Shown here: in pieces, positions 5,218-15,321 of the stretch
How positions within the stretch are numbered: the first letter of the stretch is position 1
Layout: the number at the start of each line of letters is the position of its first letter
NCBI RefSeq assembly: GCF_004214795.1
Contig: NZ_CP035928.1
Location: 806,001 to 870,000 of the forward strand
Direction: 5' to 3'
Length of the DNA stretch: 64,000 nt
Source of the DNA: Malaciobacter pacificus
GTDB lineage: Bacteria; Campylobacterota; Campylobacteria; Campylobacterales; Arcobacteraceae
Notes under the pieces: model-generated
Seen by the model: only the letters and a program-made list of their open reading frames with translations
Told to the model about the DNA's origin: nothing
Databases searched by the model: none
Made by a program: the position numbers and the translations under genes

Positions 5218-6113
5218 TTAGACTACTTCCTCTGCTGTATATTTCTCAATAAGTTTAGAGAATCTTTCATCTTCTAGTATTTCAAAGAAAAACTTATCTT
5301 TTTTTAGTTTTTCTACATACTGTTCATTTAGCTCCAATGCTTTTTCCAAATCTTCAATACAGCTATCAATTTGTCCAAGGTCATATAAAATTTTGGCTCT
5401 TTGATAAAAAGCATTAGAAAATTCATCATCAATTTTTATTGCTTGGTTTGCTAAGCTAAGTGCCCAGTTTGCTTCATCAAGTTTTAAAACTGCTTCAGCT
5501 TTATATGTTAAAGCTTCAACATCATCAGGACTTAGATTTAAAATTTCATCATAAATTTCAATTTTACCTAAAGTTGTTGATTCCTTTGAAGCTCTCATCC
5601 AAAGAGAATAAATAGTATTAGTTTTCTCAATATTTTTTTGATTTTGAACAACTTGTTTTGATCTTTTCTCTAAATCTTCTTCAAATAGATTTAACCTTTT
5701 TTCATAATCAGAAATTGTTTTTGAAATCTTTTCATCAATATCATTTTTTACTTTTTTATTAATATCTTTAATTGAGTTCCAACCCATTAAAACTAAAAAA
5801 GATGAGGCTGCAGCGATGATATAAAACATATTATTTAAAGTTGAAGTTGCATAATTAATTACATTGTTTGATATTTCAACTTCTTTTTTTGCTAAAGTTT
5901 TGTGAAGTTCAATCTTTAAGTCTCTATTCTCATCTCTTAGAGTTTTTATTTCATTTAAAATATAGTTTTCTACAAATGGATGGTATAACTGTTTTTCCAA
6001 GCTATTTATTCCTTTTTCTACCTTTTTATCAGCTTCTTGCTTGTCTAATTGTTTTGTCTCTTGGGCAAAACACAAAATATTCGAAAGTAAAAATAATAGA
6101 ATAGCTTTTTCAT
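5218..6113 (-). CDS. TPR membrane protein, start region frameshifted
   Basis: The protein has a signal peptide, a coiled coil, one membrane segment ('MFYIIAAASSFLVLMGW'), a second coiled coil and C-terminal TPR units ('DDVEALTYKAEAVLKL', 'SNAFYQRAKILYDLG'). The body is readable only from a TTG at 6075 (285 residues), which would cut the signal peptide. The ATG at 6113-6111 lies one base after the aspartokinase stop, but reading from it is off by one. If the A5 run (T run at 6106-6110) held six A, the start would read M-K-K-A-I-L-L-F-L-L-S-N-I-L-C-F-A-Q, a textbook signal peptide. This is either an assembly error or a natural -1 shift or slippage site. Function is unknown; it is the last gene of the ectoine operon. 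Confidence 0.75.
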
Positions 6114-6114
6114 C

Positions 6115-7470
6115 TTAAAGTAGTTCCTCTTTTAATGTTTTAAGTGCAATATCAGAGACATTTTGTGAAACACCTATGTGAAATGAAATTTTTGATGGAC
6201 TCATATCAAACATCTCAAATGGTATATTCTTCTCTTTTAGTGCAGTTATAGCATCAACTATTGCAAAAGAATTTTGTCTTAATCCAATTCCAACTAAAGT
6301 TAATATAGATATATTATAGTTAACATTAACTTCATTGGTTTTTAGGCGTTTTTCTATTTGACGTCTAAGATTATTGATTTTACCTTTTAAATCTTCTTGG
6401 TCAACAAGTATTGCAATATCATCTTTATCAGTAGGATAATGATAAGTATTTATTCCAAACTCTCCAAAAATTTTAAGAAGTTCTGCACTAAATCCTATCT
6501 CTTCTCCTAACATATCTTTTTGTATATGAATTGAAGCCATATTATCTAGTTTTGCAATTCCTACTAAATCTTCCATAGGAACTCTTTCACTAAGAATTAA
6601 TGTTCCTTCGTGAACTGGGTTATTTGTATTTCTAATATTAATTGGAATTTTACTTTTTTTGCAGTTTAGCATTGCATTAAAATGGAAAACATTAAATCCC
6701 TTTGAACTAAGTAATCTTAACTCTTTAAATGTAAGTCTAGGTATTACTTTTGCTTCACTTACAACTCTTGGGTCAACATTATAAACACCATTTGTATCTG
6801 TCCAGTTTTCATAAATATCTGCATCAAGTGCATAGGCTAATTCACCACCTGTTAAATCACTTCCACCTCTACTCATTACAGCAATTTGATTTTTTTCATT
6901 AACTCCATAAAAACCAGGAACTAAATAAACTTCATTTTCTTTAAAAGTAAAAGCATTTTGAATGTTTTCATGTGTTTTTGAATTTACTTTTCCATTTGTT
7001 AAACAATCACTTAAAATAAATCCAAACTCTTCAGGAAGCATAAGTTTTGTTTTTAATCCCACTGAATTCATATATGCTGTAATAACTTTAGAATTAAAGT
7101 GTTCACCCCTTGATAAAAAGAAGGCTTTTCTTTCATCACCTTTTAATTTACAGTTTTCTAAATCTTTTTTTAAGTAGTCAACTATAAACTTTTTATCTAT
7201 TTTTAAATCATCACAAAGCTTTTCAAATTTTTTTATAATAGCAAATTTAGATTCATCAATAGATATAAAAAGTTTCTGATTTTCAAAATGCTCTCCATTT
7301 GTTGCTAAGTTTAATAAATGGTCTGTAATTTTTTCATCATGTATTTCATCTCTACCAGGTGCAGAGACTACTATAACTTTTCTATCTTCATCTGCTTTTA
7401 TGATATTTACTATTTTTTTGATTTGTAAGGCATCTTTTACAGAACTACCTCCAAATTTACATACTTTCAT
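6115..7470 (-). CDS. ask: Aspartokinase, ectoine-cluster type
   Basis: Aspartokinase phosphorylates aspartate, the first step towards aspartate semialdehyde and so the ectoine precursor diaminobutyrate. The motif 'KFGGSSV' opens the kinase domain, 'GGSDLTG' follows near residue 210, and two ACT-type regulatory segments end the protein ('LVGIAKLDNMASIHIQ', 'ILTLVGIGLRQN'). I chose the inner ATG at 7470 (MKVCKFGGSS): it has a GAGGA ribosome-binding site at good spacing, while the ATG at 7488 has none and would overlap the upstream gene. Its place behind ectABC fits the dedicated Ask_Ect isoenzyme, which in other bacteria escapes feedback inhibition. Insensitivity here is inference. Confidence 0.93.
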   Translation of the reverse strand: MKVCKFGGSSVKDALQIKKIVNIIKADEDRKVIVVSAPGRDEIHDEKITDHLLNLATNGEHFENQKLFISIDESKFAIIKKFEKLCDDLKIDKKFIVDYLKKDLENCKLKGDERKAFFLSRGEHFNSKVITAYMNSVGLKTKLMLPEEFGFILSDCLTNGKVNSKTHENIQNAFTFKENEVYLVPGFYGVNEKNQIAVMSRGGSDLTGGELAYALDADIYENWTDTNGVYNVDPRVVSEAKVIPRLTFKELRLLSSKGFNVFHFNAMLNCKKSKIPINIRNTNNPVHEGTLILSERVPMEDLVGIAKLDNMASIHIQKDMLGEEIGFSAELLKIFGEFGINTYHYPTDKDDIAILVDQEDLKGKINNLRRQIEKRLKTNEVNVNYNISILTLVGIGLRQNSFAIVDAITALKEKNIPFEMFDMSPSKISFHIGVSQNVSDIALKTLKEELL

Positions 7471-7480
7471 ATTTTCCTCA

Positions 7481-8134
7481 CTATACATTACTTATTTTGT
7501 AACCTCTGTTTCTTATTGTAGTTATTAAATCAGTATTAAAGTTCTTTTTTAGTTCAGTTCTAATTTGATTTATATTAACTTCAATAACGTTATGACATAT
7601 TAGTTCTGGTTCATCCCAAATTGCATTAACTAACTCTTCTTTTGAAATAATTGCTTTGTGTCGATTTTTTATAAGATAAGATAAAACCTCGTAAGATTTA
7701 CCTTTTATATTTAATTTATTATTATTTATATCTAGGACTTGTTTCTCAATATTATTTAGTTTTAGATAGTTTTTAAATTTAAGTTTCTTTGCAAAGTTCT
7801 CTCTATGAATTGATTCTAGTTTTGCTAAAATCAATTCATAATCAAAGGGTTCTTTTATGACACTAATTGCACCAGATTGAAGTAAACTTATCTCAAAATC
7901 TTTTGATTGATTTTTTGTAAGTATCACAACGGCACTTTTTTTATCTAATCTTTTTTGAATAATCTCTTTACAAGCTATTAAATCATTTTCATAGACTAAT
8001 ATTAAATTATATAATCTTACTTGGGCATGATAAACTGCATCAAATAAATCTTCTGCAACATCACAAATATAAAGATTTTTCTCTTCTATTTCATCTATAA
8101 ACTTTTTATCTATATTTAAAGCTAAGAGTCTCAT
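7481..8134 (-). CDS. HsrA/HP1043-like atypical response regulator in ectoine operon
   Basis: This 217-residue OmpR-family protein has a receiver-like domain (1-115) and a winged-helix DNA-binding domain (125-217). The C-terminal half resembles Helicobacter HP1043 (HsrA) closely: 'IISKEELVNAIWDEPEL...NVIEVNINQIR' and 'TTIRNRGYKI'. The phosphoacceptor Asp is replaced: where receivers have 'YDLILLD', this has 'YNLILVY' (Tyr48). The acidic pocket keeps one Asp (D9). The lysine of 'ISVIKEP' remains. Regulation without phosphorylation is therefore likely, as known for HsrA. It lies 1 base after ectC and just overlaps the region before ask, so it is part of the ectoine transcript and may control it. 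Confidence 0.85.
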   Translation of the reverse strand: MRLLALNIDKKFIDEIEEKNLYICDVAEDLFDAVYHAQVRLYNLILVYENDLIACKEIIQKRLDKKSAVVILTKNQSKDFEISLLQSGAISVIKEPFDYELILAKLESIHRENFAKKLKFKNYLKLNNIEKQVLDINNNKLNIKGKSYEVLSYLIKNRHKAIISKEELVNAIWDEPELICHNVIEVNINQIRTELKKNFNTDLITTIRNRGYKISNV

Positions 8135-8135
8135 C

Positions 8136-8531
8136 TTAATCCTCTAATGGATAAACTCCATTTTCATCATGATGCTCAGTTCCTTTAATAGGAGGGTTAA
8201 ATACACAAATAAGTCTCATGTCTTCAGTTCCACCATATAAATTATGGTCATCATGATTATTTAGTGCATACATAACTCCATCATAAATCTCATGGATTTC
8301 ACCAGTTGCTAAGTCTTCAATTTTTCCATTCCCAGCTACACAATAAACAGCTTCTAAGTGGTTTTGGTAATGAATGTGAGTTTTAGTATTTGCTTTGATA
8401 ATTGTTTCATGGAAAGAAAATCCCATACCTTCATCTTTTAATAGCATTCTTCTACTAACCCATTGCCCACCTTGGGCAAATACTTCTCTATTTGTTCCTA
8501 TAACATCTTTTTTAATATCTTTTACAATCAT
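8136..8531 (-). CDS. ectC: L-ectoine synthase
   Basis: EctC is a cupin-fold metalloenzyme that cyclises N-gamma-acetyl-diaminobutyrate to ectoine, the last step of the pathway. The 131-residue length is typical. The N-terminal 'MIVKDI' and 'WVSRRMLLKDEGMGFSFHET' segments and the cupin motifs 'HYQNHLEAVYCVAGNGKIEDL' (split here as HYQNHLEAVYCV and AGNGKIEDL) and 'YALNNHDDHNLYGG' match the family. It is 3 bases downstream of ectB. Confidence 0.96.
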   Translation of the reverse strand: MIVKDIKKDVIGTNREVFAQGGQWVSRRMLLKDEGMGFSFHETIIKANTKTHIHYQNHLEAVYCVAGNGKIEDLATGEIHEIYDGVMYALNNHDDHNLYGGTEDMRLICVFNPPIKGTEHHDENGVYPLED

Positions 8532-8534
8532 TTA

Positions 8535-9815
8535 TTAAAATTCCTCTGTTAATTTTTTCTTTTTATCACTTGCAAGTTTTGTAATAGCTCTTTCAAATCT
8601 ATTTAGACCTTCAATTAAAGTCTCTTCATCAATAATTAATGGAGGTAAGAATTTAACTACTTGACCTTGACTTCCACAAGTTTCTACAATCAGTTGTTCT
8701 TCAAATGCATAAGATGAAATTTCACCAGCAACTGTTGGGTCATTTTTAATCTCAAATCCATAAGCTAAACCTCTACCTCTAATATCTATATCAAATACAT
8801 CGCTATGTTTTTGGGCTATTTCTTCAAGTTTTTTCTTTAAAACTTTCTCTTTATAAAATACTGCGTTTGTCAAGTCTTCATTTTGCCAGTAGTTTTCTAA
8901 ACTAACTTTTGAAGCAACAAATGCTAAGTTATTACCTCTAAATGTTCCCGTATGTTCACCTGGCTTCCATTGGTCTAGGTCTGGTTTAAATAGTAATAAT
9001 GCCATTGGTAAACCTCCACCAATTGATTTTGATAGTGTTACCATATCAGGATTTATATCCGCAAACTCAAAAGAGAAGAAGTTACCACTTCTACCATTCC
9101 CAACTTGAATATCATCAATAATTAATAAAATATCATACTCTCTACAAATACTCTCTAACTCTTTAAGCCATTTTGCACTTGAAACATTAATTCCACCTTC
9201 ACCTTGAATTGTTTCAACAATAATAGCAGCAGGTAAATCAACACCACTACTTCCATCATTTAAAAATTTTCTTAAATATTCTAAAGTATTGAAATCACCA
9301 AAATATCCATCAAAAGGCATAAAAGTAGCATTACTTCTACTAATATAACTTTCATCTCTATACTCGTTATTTCCAGTAACTGCAAGTGAACCTTGGCTTA
9401 ATCCATGGTATCCATTTGTAAAAGCTATTACATTACTTCTACCTTTTACTAATCTTGCTAGTTTTAAAGCTGTCTCAACACAGTTTGTACCAGTTGGTCC
9501 AGTAAACTGCATTTTGTACTCTAAGTTTCTAGGTTTTAAAATCAGTTCTTGAAATGTTTCCATAAACTCTTTTTTAGCAGTTGTTGCCATATCAAGTCCA
9601 TGAACAACTCCATCATTTTGTAGATATTCAATTAAAGCGTTTGAAATTAAATCATTATTATGACCATAATTTAATGTTCCAGCTCCTGCAAAAAAATCTA
9701 TGTAATCTACATCTTGTTCATCTGTTAAAATAGCTCCCTTAGCTTTTTTAAAGATTGTTGGGAAACTTCTTATATATCCTCTTACTTCTGACTCAAAATT
9801 TTCAAATATTCTCAT
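8535..9815 (-). CDS. ectB: Diaminobutyrate-2-oxoglutarate transaminase
   Basis: EctB converts aspartate semialdehyde to L-2,4-diaminobutyrate with glutamate as amino donor. The 426-residue class-III aminotransferase shows 'FFAGAGTLNYGHNN', 'FTGPTGTNCVETALKLAR', 'IIDDIQVGNGRSG' and the PLP lysine in 'TLSKSIGGGLPM' (Lys263). 'HTGTFRGNNLAF' marks the substrate region. It is complete and lies 1 base downstream of ectA in the operon ectA-ectB-ectC. Confidence 0.97.
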   Translation of the reverse strand: MRIFENFESEVRGYIRSFPTIFKKAKGAILTDEQDVDYIDFFAGAGTLNYGHNNDLISNALIEYLQNDGVVHGLDMATTAKKEFMETFQELILKPRNLEYKMQFTGPTGTNCVETALKLARLVKGRSNVIAFTNGYHGLSQGSLAVTGNNEYRDESYISRSNATFMPFDGYFGDFNTLEYLRKFLNDGSSGVDLPAAIIVETIQGEGGINVSSAKWLKELESICREYDILLIIDDIQVGNGRSGNFFSFEFADINPDMVTLSKSIGGGLPMALLLFKPDLDQWKPGEHTGTFRGNNLAFVASKVSLENYWQNEDLTNAVFYKEKVLKKKLEEIAQKHSDVFDIDIRGRGLAYGFEIKNDPTVAGEISSYAFEEQLIVETCGSQGQVVKFLPPLIIDEETLIEGLNRFERAITKLASDKKKKLTEEF

Positions 9816-9816
9816 T

Positions 9817-10320
9817 TTATTTTTTTCCTTTTAATTTAAAAGAACCAATTGTATACATAGGTTCATCTTCATGTGCATTTTTAAAATCTTTCATTTTTAA
9901 AAATTTAGATTTTTTAATTTTAGTGTTTAGCTCTTTTGCAACTTTTTCAAATACTCTAATTGAAGAAGAGTTACTTGGAGAAACTGTAGTTTTTATATAA
10001 TTAATATCTTTGCATTCTTTTCTTTTTGCAATTTTTAAAATTAATTTTTGAGCTAATCCTAATCCTCTATAATTACTATTTACAGCAACTTGCCATATAA
10101 ATAGTGAATTTTCATTTGGAATTAGATAACCAGAAACAAAACCTATAACTTTATTCTTAGTTTCATCTATGGCAACACAACAATAATCTTTGAAATGGAT
10201 TGTTTGTAAGTAGTATAAATATTCAGAGTTTACATCTAAGACTTTTGTGTCTTTTACTAGTTTTATTATCTCTTTTGTATGAGATTTTTTAGGTTTTACC
10301 AATTTAATCTTGGTGGACAA
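9817..10320 (-). CDS. ectA: Diaminobutyrate acetyltransferase
   Basis: EctA transfers acetyl from acetyl-CoA to the gamma-amino group of diaminobutyrate. The 167-residue GNAT protein has the acetyl-CoA loop 'VNSNYRGLGLAQKLI' and the family segment 'TTVSPSNSSSIRVFEKVAK'. It is the first gene of the leftward ectoine operon, with an 'AAGGAGATAT' ribosome-binding stretch before its ATG. The 240-bp AT-rich region upstream is shared with the divergent proV operon. Confidence 0.95.
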   Translation of the reverse strand: MSTKIKLVKPKKSHTKEIIKLVKDTKVLDVNSEYLYYLQTIHFKDYCCVAIDETKNKVIGFVSGYLIPNENSLFIWQVAVNSNYRGLGLAQKLILKIAKRKECKDINYIKTTVSPSNSSSIRVFEKVAKELNTKIKKSKFLKMKDFKNAHEDEPMYTIGSFKLKGKK

Positions 10321-10388
10321 GATATCTCCTTTTTAGATTTAAAATTTAATAAAATAGTTAAAAAATATACATATTAAATGTTTTAAAA

Positions 10389-10525
10389 TTACATATAATA
10401 TGTAAAAATATAACATATTTTTTGTAAATATAGCATATAAAATTTATATATAGCTTAAATTAATTTTGTTATTAAAACAAATAAAATTTAATATATTTAT
10501 AAAATATTAAGAAAATATAGTATAT
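10389..10525. promoter_or_regulatory. Divergent ect/pro regulatory region with repeated motif
   Basis: The gap between ectA and proV is almost pure A/T and holds three near-identical 13-mers: AAATATAACATAT (10406-10418), AAATATAGCATAT (10426-10438, exactly 20 bp later) and AAATATAGTATAT (10513-10525). A perfect 17-bp palindrome (TTACATAT-A-ATATGTAA, 10389-10405) sits next to the first copy. Tandem direct repeats about two helical turns apart are how OmpR-type regulators usually bind, so the operon's own HsrA-like protein is a candidate. The low complexity of the region weakens the claim. Confidence 0.5.
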
Positions 10526-10562: not shown

Positions 10563-11777
10563 ATTACTGAAAGAAAGAAAAAATTAACAGTTAAGAATGT
10601 TTATAAAGTTTTTGGAGAAAATCCAAAAAAAGCTTTAAAGATGTTAAATGATGGGCATTCAAAAGAAGAAATATTTTCTAAGACAGGCATGACTATAGGT
10701 GTACAAGATGCAAGTTTTGAAATTTACGAAGGCGAAATTTTTGTAATTATGGGACTATCAGGTTCTGGAAAATCTACACTTGTAAGATTACTAAATAGAC
10801 TTATTGAACCTACTAGTGGTAACATCTTAATTGATGATACTGATGTTACAAACTTATCTGACAAAGAACTTATGGAAATTAGAAGAAAGAAAATATCTAT
10901 GGTTTTCCAATCATTTGCATTAATGCCTCATATGAATATTATTGATAATACATCTTTTGGATTAGATTTAAGTGGTGTATCAAAAGAGCAAAGATATGAA
11001 GCTGCTAAAAATGCTTTAGAGCAAGTAGGTTTAAAAGGTTATGAAGAATCTTATCCCGATGAATTAAGTGGTGGAATGCAGCAAAGAGTAGGTCTTGCTA
11101 GAGCACTAGCAAATAATCCAGATATTATGCTTATGGATGAAGCATTCTCAGCACTAGACCCTCTTATTAGAACAGAAATGCAAGATGAATTATTAGAATT
11201 ACAAAGTAATGATAAAAGAACAATTGTATTTATTTCTCATGATTTAGATGAGGCTATAAGAATAGGGGATAGAATCGCTATCATGCAAAATGGTGAAATA
11301 TCTCAAATAGGAACACCAGAAGATATTATAAATAATCCTGCAAATGATTATATAAGGTCATTTTTTAAAGGTGTTGATGTGACTTCTGTATTAACAGCAG
11401 GGCATATTGCTAAGAAACTTAGACCAACTATTATTGACAAAGAAAGCACAGGTGTAAAATCTGCACTTCAATATATCGGTGATTTTGATGAAGATTATGC
11501 ATATTTTGTTGAAAAAAGTGGTAAATATCTTGGAATATTAACTTTAGATTCTTTAAAAGAGCAAAAGCAAAAAGGTGGAACAATTTATGATGCCATTTAT
11601 TGTAATAAAGCTGTAACTGACGATACTCAAATTTCTGATTTTATTACTGATGTTGCTGAATATCAATATCCACTTCCTGTTATTGATGGAAAAGGCAAGT
11701 ATAAAGGAACTATTTCTAAAAGTAGATTATTAAAAGTATTTGATGAAGGTCTAGAAGAAGGAGAATCACATGAGTAA
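10563..11777 (+). CDS. proV: Glycine betaine/proline ABC transporter ATPase, apparent AUU start
   Basis: ProV/OpuAA energises uptake of compatible solutes. Walker A 'GLSGSGKST', signature '[15 protein letters not shown]', Walker B '[13 protein letters not shown]' and C-terminal CBS-type segments (about 275-400) are present. The first in-frame ATG (10641) has no ribosome-binding site and would remove the conserved N-terminus '[13 protein letters not shown]'. The frame is open upstream to a TAA at 10557, with no ATG, GTG or TTG suitable for a start. GGAG at 10552-10555 sits 7 bases before ATT (10563), giving (M)TERKKLTVKN, so AUU initiation is proposed. An ATG at 10550 in another frame encodes only 6 codons. 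An ATG-to-ATT change or an indel is the alternative. Confidence 0.88.
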
Positions 11778-12795
11778 TGATCCATGGGGAAATGCATCAA
11801 CTGCACAAGAAGATAAACAGTCATCTGTTGACTGGACACAAGAATCTACAGCAACTCCTATTGAAGAAGAAACAAGTTTTGATATTTTAAATCCATTTAG
11901 TGATGCTATTATTCCTTTTGATGATTGGACTAATAATGGAATTGATTGGTTAGTTCAAAACTATAGAGACGTTTTTTTAGCTGCAAAAGCACCTATTGAT
12001 ATAGTTTTAAAATCTATCGAGGCATTTTTACTATTTTTAAATCCTTATGTTGTTATTGCATTTTTTGTTTTATTAGCTTTACAGTTTTCTAGTAAAAAGA
12101 TGGCATTTGGAACTCTTATATCATTTTTTATAATCGGATTTATAGGTGCTTGGGAAGAGTCTATGATTACTTTATCTTTAGTTATTACTTCAGTTATATT
12201 TTCTATAGTCATAGGACTTCCACTTGGTATATGGTGTGCTAAAAGTGATAGGGTTGACAAAATTGTACGACCAATACTTGATGCTATGCAAACAACTCCA
12301 GCCTTTGTTTATTTAATTCCAATTGTAATGTTATTTGGTATTGGTAATGTACCTGGAGTTATCGTAACAATCATTTTTGCACTTCCTCCATTAATTAGAC
12401 TTACAAATCTAGGTATTAGACAAGTGCCTGATGATTTAATTGAAGCTTCAAGATCTTTTGGAGCTAGTTCTAAGCAAATGTTATGGAAAGTACAAATTCC
12501 TGTTGCTATGCCAACTATTATGGCAGGAATAAATCAAACACTAATGCTTGCTTTATCAATGGTAGTTATTGCTTCAATGATTGCTGTTGGAGGTCTAGGT
12601 CAAATGGTTCTTAGAGGAATTGGAAGATTAGATGTTGGTTTAGCTGCAGTTGGAGGATTAGGTATTGTTTTATTAGCAATAATCTTAGATAGATTAACTC
12701 AAGCAATGGGACAAAAAGATAAAAGTGATAAAACTAAATGGTATGAAAAAGGACCAGCTGGGTTTATCTTAAAATTAGTAGGAAAAGGAAAATAA
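11770..12795 (+). CDS. proW: Glycine betaine/proline ABC transporter permease
   Basis: This 341-residue inner-membrane protein is the pore of the ProVWX system. The N-terminal ~70 residues are acidic and soluble, as in ProW, followed by several membrane helices. The EAA coupling loop is clear: '[29 protein letters not shown]'-like, with 'EASRSFGAS' and 'QIPVAMPTI' visible. Its ATG overlaps the 3' end of proV by 8 bases, and its stop overlaps the porin ATG by 1 base, so V, W and the porin gene are translationally linked. Confidence 0.95.
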
Positions 12796-13966
12796 TGAAT
12801 AAAAAAATTAGTTTAGGATTAATAGCGTCATCGGTGTTATTTGCAGGAAATTTAAGTGCAGATACTTTAAGTGAAGCATTCGAAAATGGTAAGGTAAGTG
12901 GTGAGATTAAATCTCAATATTTCCAAAAAGAGAGTAATAATTCTGAAACAACAAGTATTTGGACAAATGGTGGAAACTTATCTTATAAGACAGGTTCATT
13001 TTATGGTTTAAGTGCAGGAGTTACTTTTCAAGTTGCTTCAACTACAGCTGAAGACTTAGATGAAAAACCAGATGCCTTTGATGCAGATCAAAATGTTTCA
13101 GGTGCAGTAATGTCTGAATCATATTTACAATATACAAGAGGAAATACTACAGCTAAACTTGGTAGACAATATATTTCAACTCCATTAGTAGCAGGTTCTG
13201 GTACTAGAATTTTTAAAGAGTCTTTTGAAGCATATACTATTCAAAACTCAGATTTACCAAATACAACGATCACAGCTTCATACGTTACAAAATTCCAAGG
13301 AAGAACTGATGTAAATGAAGGTGCTCCTAAGTTTAATAAGTTAGGTGATGGAGTTTATTCAGTTTATGTAACAAATAACTCAATTGAAAACTTAAATTTA
13401 GCAGGTCAATATGTAAAAGCTACGGATATGACAACTGATAATAAAGATATTACTCTTTACTATTTAAATGGTTCTTATGATTTTGGTGCATTTAAATTAG
13501 GTGCTCAATATTATGGGTCTGATGATGATAATACTGCTGATACTGGTTATTACTTAAATAATAGAGATGGATATTTATATGCATTAAAAGCTTCTACTAA
13601 TATTGGTGGTTTATCTTTAGGTGTTGCATATAGTGAAGTGTCAGAAAAGGTGGAGTATCTGCATATAACTTAGGAAATGGTGCAGATTATATCTACACTT
13701 GGACTTGGATGTATGGTGGAGTTTATGATGCTGATACAACAGCATATAGTATAGATGGTTCTTATAAATTCACTGATAAATTATCTGCAAGTTTTATCCA
13801 TGCTAATTGGGAAATTGGAAATAGTGGAGATATGAGAGAAACAGATATTATTGTTGATTATAAATTTACAAATGCACTTTCAGCAAGATTATTACATGCT
13901 GATTTAAATGATAATGCAGGATATGGTAAATATAGATCAAGACTTTATGTATCTTATAAATTTTAA
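12795..13966 (+). pseudogene. OprD-like outer-membrane porin, frameshifted
   Basis: The first part (293 codons) has a signal peptide (cut near 'NLSA') and beta-barrel strands typical of Campylobacterota OprD-type porins ('SEAFENGKVSGEIKSQY', 'SYLQYTRGNTTAKLGRQY'). At 13645-13648 the run AAAA throws the frame off and a TAG follows at 13671. One more A would give '...SEKGGVSAYNLGNGADYI' and join to the second part, ending with the porin-typical terminal Phe ('YVSYKF'). The repaired protein would be 390 residues. The gene lies between proW and proX, so it probably serves as the outer-membrane pore for compatible solutes. An assembly error is as likely as a true mutation. Confidence 0.8.
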
Positions 13967-14982: not shown

Positions 14983-15321
14983 TTGGCTTTATTAAACAAT
15001 GATAAAGATATACTACCATTAAGTAGTATTGCTGAACTACTTACTGCGAAAGTAAGAACATTAAAAATGTATGAAGATAAGGGGCTGTTCCCCGTAAAAA
15101 AAGATGCAAAAAAACTTTACTCAATTAATGATGTGAAGATTATATCTTTTGTTCACTATTTAGCAAGTGTAAAAAAAATAAATGCAAATGGTATAAAATA
15201 TATTTTAGAAATGCTTGAAAATAATATGGATGAAAAAAATAGACAAGAATTTTTAGATATTGTTGAAAATACATTAGAAAAAATATCAGGTTCTGAAATT
15301 AAGGATGTTGAAGTTTTTTGA
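14983..15321 (+). CDS. MerR-family transcriptional regulator
   Basis: This 112-residue protein starts at TTG after an AAGGAA ribosome-binding site. The N-terminal winged helix-turn-helix reads 'LPLSSIAELLTAKVRTLKMYEDKGLFPVKKD' in pieces, with the MerR hallmark 'R.L..YE..GL..P'. A short helical tail follows and there is no obvious ligand domain or metal-binding cysteine. It is 29 bases downstream of proX on the same strand and probably cotranscribed, so it could regulate the compatible-solute operon. The signal it senses cannot be read. Confidence 0.85.
   Translation: MALLNNDKDILPLSSIAELLTAKVRTLKMYEDKGLFPVKKDAKKLYSINDVKIISFVHYLASVKKINANGIKYILEMLENNMDEKNRQEFLDIVENTLEKISGSEIKDVEVF

Follow-up and report, generated by a model that had tools for sequence, protein, structure and literature searches.

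The ectoine operon of Malaciobacter pacificus carries, between ectC and ask and downstream of ectB and ectA, a reading frame of 217 codons with an ATG start (ORF reading of the window), which encodes an OmpR-type protein of the HsrA/CosR family, here termed EREG. This position raises the question of whether EREG is the housekeeping HsrA/CosR regulator of its genome or a paralogue dedicated to ectoine synthesis. The DNA analysed, referred to as the window, is a stretch of 64,000 nucleotides of contig NZ_CP035928.1 (positions 806,001 to 870,000), and the features discussed are collected in Table 1. The divergent operon starting at position 10641 is attributed by family models to proVW, a porin gene and proX. 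The porin gene, located between proW and proX (12795-13966), is composed of two frames, and a relative at L059:4878-6050 has one intact frame of 390 aa; the split in the window is a frameshift or a sequencing error. A membrane-anchored TPR protein is encoded at window positions 5218-6075, directly 3′ of ask. The TPR protein is kept in many ect loci (L062, L102, L108, L109, L169-L171, L173 and L180) and also occurs near a proX gene in L230, and is possibly a part of the osmotic response.

Table 1. Coordinates of the features of the ectoine locus in the window, with the basis of each assignment.
Feature	Position	Strand	Basis
EREG, HsrA/CosR-family paralogue, 217 aa	7481..8134	-	ORF, PDB/Pfam matches, tree, predicted structure
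EREG domains: degenerate receiver (aa 1-112), winged-helix DNA-binding domain (aa 117-215)			
Codon of Tyr48, former phosphoacceptor position, end of β3	7991..7993	-	Alignment, predicted structure
ask, aspartokinase of the operon	6115..7488	-	Subfamily model above cut-off
ectC, ectoine synthase	8136..8531	-	Family model above curated cut-off
ectB, diaminobutyrate transaminase	8535..9815	-	TIGR02407 above cut-off
ectA, diaminobutyrate acetyltransferase, TTG start	9817..10320	-	TIGR02406 above cut-off
22-bp-period array TTACA-N7-TGTAA-N5 between −10 and ectA, putative operator of the MerR-type regulator	10367..10427	.	
Extended −10 (ATGCTATATT) of the predicted ectA promoter	10427..10436	-	
HP1043/CosR-type direct repeat TTTAAG-N7-TAAA (TTTAAGCTATATATAAA) replacing the −35 of the ectA promoter, putative operator of EREG and/or housekeeping CosR	10443..10459	-	
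Gene of a MerR-type regulator (112 aa), likely co-regulator, kept as a companion at ectA, proVWX or BCCT loci	14983..15321	+	

The preliminary description of this locus suggested a search of the genome for a second hsrA. In the genome of the window (one contig, 2.66 Mb), the top match to HP1043 is C1:347335-348006, with 61% identity, and the second-best match is EREG, with 32% identity. EREG is a paralogue, not the housekeeping hsrA/cosR orthologue of its genome, because a separate housekeeping copy exists at C1:347335-348006. The housekeeping copy has a full receiver match with an intact phosphorylation site, and the gene after it encodes a histidine kinase (HisKA and HATPase domains).

Membership of EREG in the HsrA family is clear from its sequence, its predicted structure and its phylogeny. 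The best PDB sequence matches are C. jejuni CosR (8uvx/8uuz, 4e-32) and H. pylori HP1043 (2hqr, 6e-27). The predicted structure (pLDDT 93.7) is composed of a five-strand receiver and a winged helix, and its best structural matches are two CosR-DNA crystals (8uvk/8uvx), with Z of 25 and 24.8 over 213 residues, the next entry having a Z of 19. The DNA-binding half, described beforehand as HP1043-like, indeed carries AIWDEPEL and NVIEVNINQIR and thereby the HsrA/CosR signature W-E/D-E/D-P-E ... N-V-I-E-V-x-I-N-x-I-R, and CosR and HP1043 are its nearest solved relatives. Specifically, residues W173, P176, E177, N182, E185, N187, I188, N189, I191 and R192 are invariant in 11 orthologues, and the recognition helix of the paralogues, NVIEV[A/N]INQIR, differs from that of CosR at one of 11 residues. 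Pfam recognises only the DNA-binding domain Trans_reg_C in EREG; the receiver model finds no match in the window protein or in the three orthologues tested, and matches the housekeeping copy. EREG thus has the OmpR fold, with Trans_reg_C as its only Pfam domain, and not the MarR fold of the EctR class.

A phylogeny of 54 rows, including five other OmpR regulators of the same genome, places the ectoine paralogues in one clade (support 100/100) inside the HsrA family, in agreement with the expectation of the preliminary description. Neither of the two outcomes named there as refuting, a genome with no other hsrA or a phylogeny outside the HsrA clade, was obtained. The clade is joined with a second HsrA-like set, H2 (100/98), and HsrA together with the paralogues is split from the five other OmpR regulators (100/99), the exact joining order within the HsrA tree being uncertain given the long branches. 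Degenerate receivers also characterise a second group of HsrA-like paralogues, which is found in other genera and families (L067:5377-6039, L068, L069, L070 and L115-L119). In G001, a paralogue of this group lies head to head with ectABC, and the promoter of that ectABC has a complete TAAG-N7-TAAG box.

In the predicted structure, Tyr48 is positioned at the end of strand β3, the place of the phosphoacceptor. In an alignment of 18 receivers, comprising the window protein and 17 orthologues, the phosphoacceptor column, which is uncertain by one residue, reads Y, R, Q, N, K, K, Y, E, K, K, K, K, K, D, D, K, D, N, so that Asp is present in three of 18. Furthermore, the second residue of the acidic pocket is I, L or V in all 18 proteins, and the switch Lys (before Pro) is kept in four. 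EREG therefore does not carry the canonical residues of a response regulator (acidic pair, phosphoacceptor Asp and switch Lys), and both the structure and the alignment are consistent with the earlier placement of Tyr48 at the phosphorylation site of a partly lost acidic pocket. Tyr48 is not a phospho-tyrosine or otherwise special site, as the position varies among orthologues.

In all housekeeping copies examined in Arcobacteraceae, Asp51 is intact, as are the acidic pair and the switch Lys. The ectoine paralogue has therefore lost its phosphorylation site independently of Helicobacter and thermotolerant Campylobacter. The phosphorylation independence ascribed beforehand to HsrA is consequently not a trait of the class, since Asp51 and the pocket are kept in the housekeeping copies of Arcobacteraceae and CosRS of C. 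fetus, a non-thermotolerant Campylobacter, is a working two-component pair with demonstrated phosphate transfer (PMC3938529). The housekeeping copy here is arranged like C. fetus CosRS, with an Asp51-bearing response regulator followed by a histidine kinase, whereas EREG has neither an adjacent kinase nor a phosphorylation site.

EREG is present in 19 of 104 Arcobacteraceae genomes (about 318 bits or more, the next group scoring 164), while ectC is found above cut-off in 44. Every EREG carrier has ectC (19/19), and none of the 60 ectC-negative genomes has EREG (Fisher test over the 104 genomes, 5e-9, with no correction for relatedness). In a set of 399 genomes of the order, no member is found outside Arcobacteraceae, the best non-members scoring 169 bits versus about 330 or more. 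EREG is located at the ectABC locus in 18 of the 19 carriers: in 14 it follows ectC, and in four related genomes it immediately precedes ectA. In G128, it lies away from ectABC, head to head with the MerR-type regulator gene. This linkage to ectC (19/19 versus 0/60), along with the CosR-type putative operator kept at the ectA promoter, supports the earlier proposal of a paralogue dedicated to an osmolyte operon.

The EREG frame is open in all 19 carriers. Its presence is patchy, such that the EctBC tree calls for 5 to 6 events of gain or loss at the least, and the gene is absent from 85 of the 104 genomes, indicating that it is neither indispensable nor generally essential. In G018, EREG has been lost by deletion, leaving a 24-codon 5′ remnant (MRLLAFYIDEKLIVKNKIRIQGDN*) at L104:7875-7949, between ectD and the small ORF described below.

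In many loci, there is a gap of about 305 bp between ectC and the regulator gene. The gap is not a conserved non-coding element, as it consists of a reading frame of about 100 aa without a Pfam match (L060:8036-8335, L062:8325-8624, L056:7278-7577 and others). This frame is present in 20 of the 104 Arcobacteraceae genomes, mostly at ect loci, and is missing in the genome of the window; extra copies are located elsewhere, for example in L228, between msrB-like and msrA-like genes. The protein is predicted to be ferredoxin-like (pLDDT 93), and a fold search with it returns generic alpha/beta ferredoxin-like matches only, with E no better than 0.009.

The ectA promoters of the carriers contain, in place of a −35 box, a direct repeat with the consensus TAAG-N7-TAAR. 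The architecture matches that of the HP1043 site, in which TTTAAG occurs twice as a direct repeat with a gap of 5 bp, the first copy being better conserved, before an extended −10 without a −35 (PMC5253667), and the half-site spacing of 11 bp is equal to that of the CosR crystal DNA, AATTAAGATATTATTAACCAA (PMC10936212). We compared 32 ectA/ect promoters, 16 from carriers and 16 from non-carriers, aligned on the extended −10, which was picked by hand in two of them (the window and L063) and recovered by an independent pattern in the window. In the carriers, TAAG starts at exactly −21 bp from the extended −10 in 15 of 16 promoters, and a second TAAG is found at −10 bp, exact in eight and with at most one mismatch in 15, while TAAG at any other offset occurs in at most one of the 16. 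These promoters are homologous, so that shared descent adds to the conservation of the box, although the sequence around the half-sites has diverged. Among 802 unrelated TGnTATA sites of the same loci, TAAG is found at −21 in nine and at −10 in six. The same full box, at the same offset, precedes EREG's own promoter in four close relatives (L064, L065, L167 and L168); in G128, only the second half-site is present at the ect promoter, and no box is found at EREG's own promoter.

The half-sites are also present in non-carriers, with TAAG at −21 in eight of the 16 promoters, at −10 in 10 and at both in three, indicating that the box alone is not proof of EREG binding. Both exact half-sites occur in seven carriers versus three non-carriers. 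Since non-carriers keep the half-sites, although less well, the presence of an HsrA-type site at ectA probably predates EREG or does not depend on it. A genome-wide scan with the composite box for CosR targets gave 14 hits versus 10 in the reversed control, hardly above it.

A second conserved element, the 22-bp-period array, stands downstream of the −10 and ahead of the start of ectA, and in its own genome the array is clustered only there; shuffled sequence would give about 0.4 hits per 64 kb. The array is not an EREG operator, as it is present without EREG and tracks the MerR-type gene. This gene is found in 57 of the 104 Arcobacteraceae genomes, including 40 of the 44 ectC-positive ones, and adjoins ectA in many ect loci; several ectC-negative genomes have it beside proVWX or a BCCT gene. 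The array occurs upstream of ectA, proV and a BCCT gene, being close to the proV start in L233, L235 and L064 and to the start of the BCCT gene in L231. Sites of the MerR gene and array were noted at L231:6583, L233:5356 and L235:2878. Furthermore, G001 and G020 have neither the array nor a close MerR homologue (best E about 1e-7), and G082, which belongs to another family, has both. From these patterns we infer that the MerR-type protein would be an osmolyte regulator acting on the array. It is a strong candidate for a co-regulator of the ectoine operon, and gene and array together are a candidate for the master osmolyte regulator of Arcobacteraceae, comparable in role to the MarR-type CosR of Vibrio, which represses ect, pro and bcc genes (PMC7876524). 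Coiled-coil matches of the MerR protein to a viral protein are due to chance and were disregarded.

We consider it likely that EREG is an HsrA/CosR paralogue which, in part of the Arcobacteraceae, has turned into an operon-borne, phospho-independent regulator of ectoine synthesis, activating the ect operon and itself. The receiver, which keeps its fold, would presumably serve as a dimerisation module, and the usual phosphorylation would no longer be possible. We infer that EREG binds as a homodimer, with an activating effect and no phosphorylation input, the binding site most likely being TAAG-N7-TAAR beside the extended −10 of the ectA promoter, from where it would recruit RNA polymerase, as proposed for HP1043. 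EREG would also activate its own synthesis, because its gene lies in the ect operon or, where it stands alone, behind the same TAAG box. Activation is preferred over repression because the box replaces the −35, as it does at HP1043 targets; EREG could possibly be a repressor, or a modulator of CosR. The likeliest salt-responsive partner of EREG would be the MerR-type protein on the downstream array. More tentatively, a pre-existing CosR-type operator at the ect promoter may have been captured by a kinase-free CosR duplicate, giving a self-activating, phosphorylation-free switch combined with a MerR-type repressor on the 22-bp array.

The same box could have another reader. If housekeeping HsrA/CosR were the main activator at the ectA box, EREG would be an accessory, tuning CosR output at this single promoter as a competitor, heterodimer partner or anti-activator that lacks a phospho-input. 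Genomes that have housekeeping CosR and lack EREG show TAAG half-sites at these offsets in their ect promoters, which would fit this arrangement, as would the intact phosphorylation site and neighbouring kinase of the housekeeping copy. We nevertheless regard it as unlikely, considering that the first half-site is kept in 15 of 16 carriers versus eight of 16 non-carriers, that the exact pair is likewise more frequent in carriers (seven versus three), and that the box is also found at the stand-alone promoters of EREG. Housekeeping CosR may read the ectA box in addition to EREG. That EREG is a passenger, a drifting HsrA duplicate carried with the ect operon to no regulatory effect, is highly improbable: the patchy presence and the deletion in G018 with its remnant agree with such drift, but the frames are open in all carriers, the DNA-binding residues are invariant, the fold is confidently predicted, and the gene is retained even when moved, either upstream of ectA in the four related genomes or beside the MerR gene in G128.

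The other contender for the role of main regulator is the MerR-type protein itself, which would control ectoine synthesis in response to salt through the 22-bp array, most likely as a repressor, leaving EREG a minor or different role. Its prevalence in ectC-positive genomes, its place beside proVWX or BCCT genes in several ectC-negative ones, the position of the array upstream of ectA, proV and the BCCT gene and its clustering at this site only in the own genome all point this way, as does the joint absence or presence of gene and array in G001, G020 and G082. We find a minor role for EREG doubtful, however, as it leaves unexplained both the CosR-type box upstream of the −10 and the tracking of ectC by EREG. 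The MerR protein and EREG could moreover act jointly, in which case the rivalry concerns only which of them is the 'main' regulator.

Compared with known regulators, EREG is most similar to HsrA/HP1043 of H. pylori and CosR/Cj0355c of C. jejuni, sharing the full-length OmpR-type fold, the DNA-binding signature and a degenerate phosphorylation site, with a promoter box of the same type as its putative target. EREG differs from both in having only about 35% identity, in not being the housekeeping orthologue, and in lying in the ectoine operon and tracking it. In particular, the second acid of the pocket is gone, the switch lysine is mostly gone, and there is a one-residue insertion before the DNA-binding helices.

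Ectoine regulators reported in the open-licence literature searched comprise the MarR-type EctR and Vibrio CosR, GlnR, OpaR, AphA and the two-component regulator MtrA (PMC5924519, PMC7876524, PMC13189361). The statement of the preliminary description that known ectoine regulators are MarR-type thus holds for EctR, but does not extend to GlnR, MtrA, OpaR and AphA. The genes of EctR and Vibrio CosR are, like that of EREG, linked to ectABC-ask, but the proteins are repressors of an unrelated fold and family, and the Vibrio protein shares only the name with CosR. Salt still induces ect genes in the absence of EctR, a regulator with no established cue (PMC5924519). MtrA of Streptomyces is an OmpR-type direct activator of ectABCD and a global two-component regulator (MtrAB) with Asp53 as its key residue (PMC13189361). 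MtrA resembles EREG in belonging to the OmpR family, and in MtrA's case the action on the ect operon is direct; unlike EREG, it is neither dedicated to the operon nor a phospho-dead paralogue.

In a literature search of open-licence papers, none joins ectoine with HsrA, or ectoine with MerR and Arcobacter, and ectoine control in Arcobacteraceae has apparently not been studied before. What appears to be new is the dedication to one operon, the independent loss of phosphorylation and the circuit at the promoter, and EREG is probably a dedicated switch for ectoine without a described precedent. If true, the two-regulator osmoregulation circuit, consisting of the CosR paralogue and the MerR protein, would be one not described in Campylobacterota, and its few components (paralogue, promoter box, MerR protein and array) bear on how ect genes sense salt. 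The non-carrier genomes and the genome with the deletion are natural comparisons for the role of EREG. If true, the ectoine operon of Arcobacteraceae would also illustrate clearly how an essential regulator linked to a kinase can give rise to a copy that is dedicated to one operon and free of phosphorylation.
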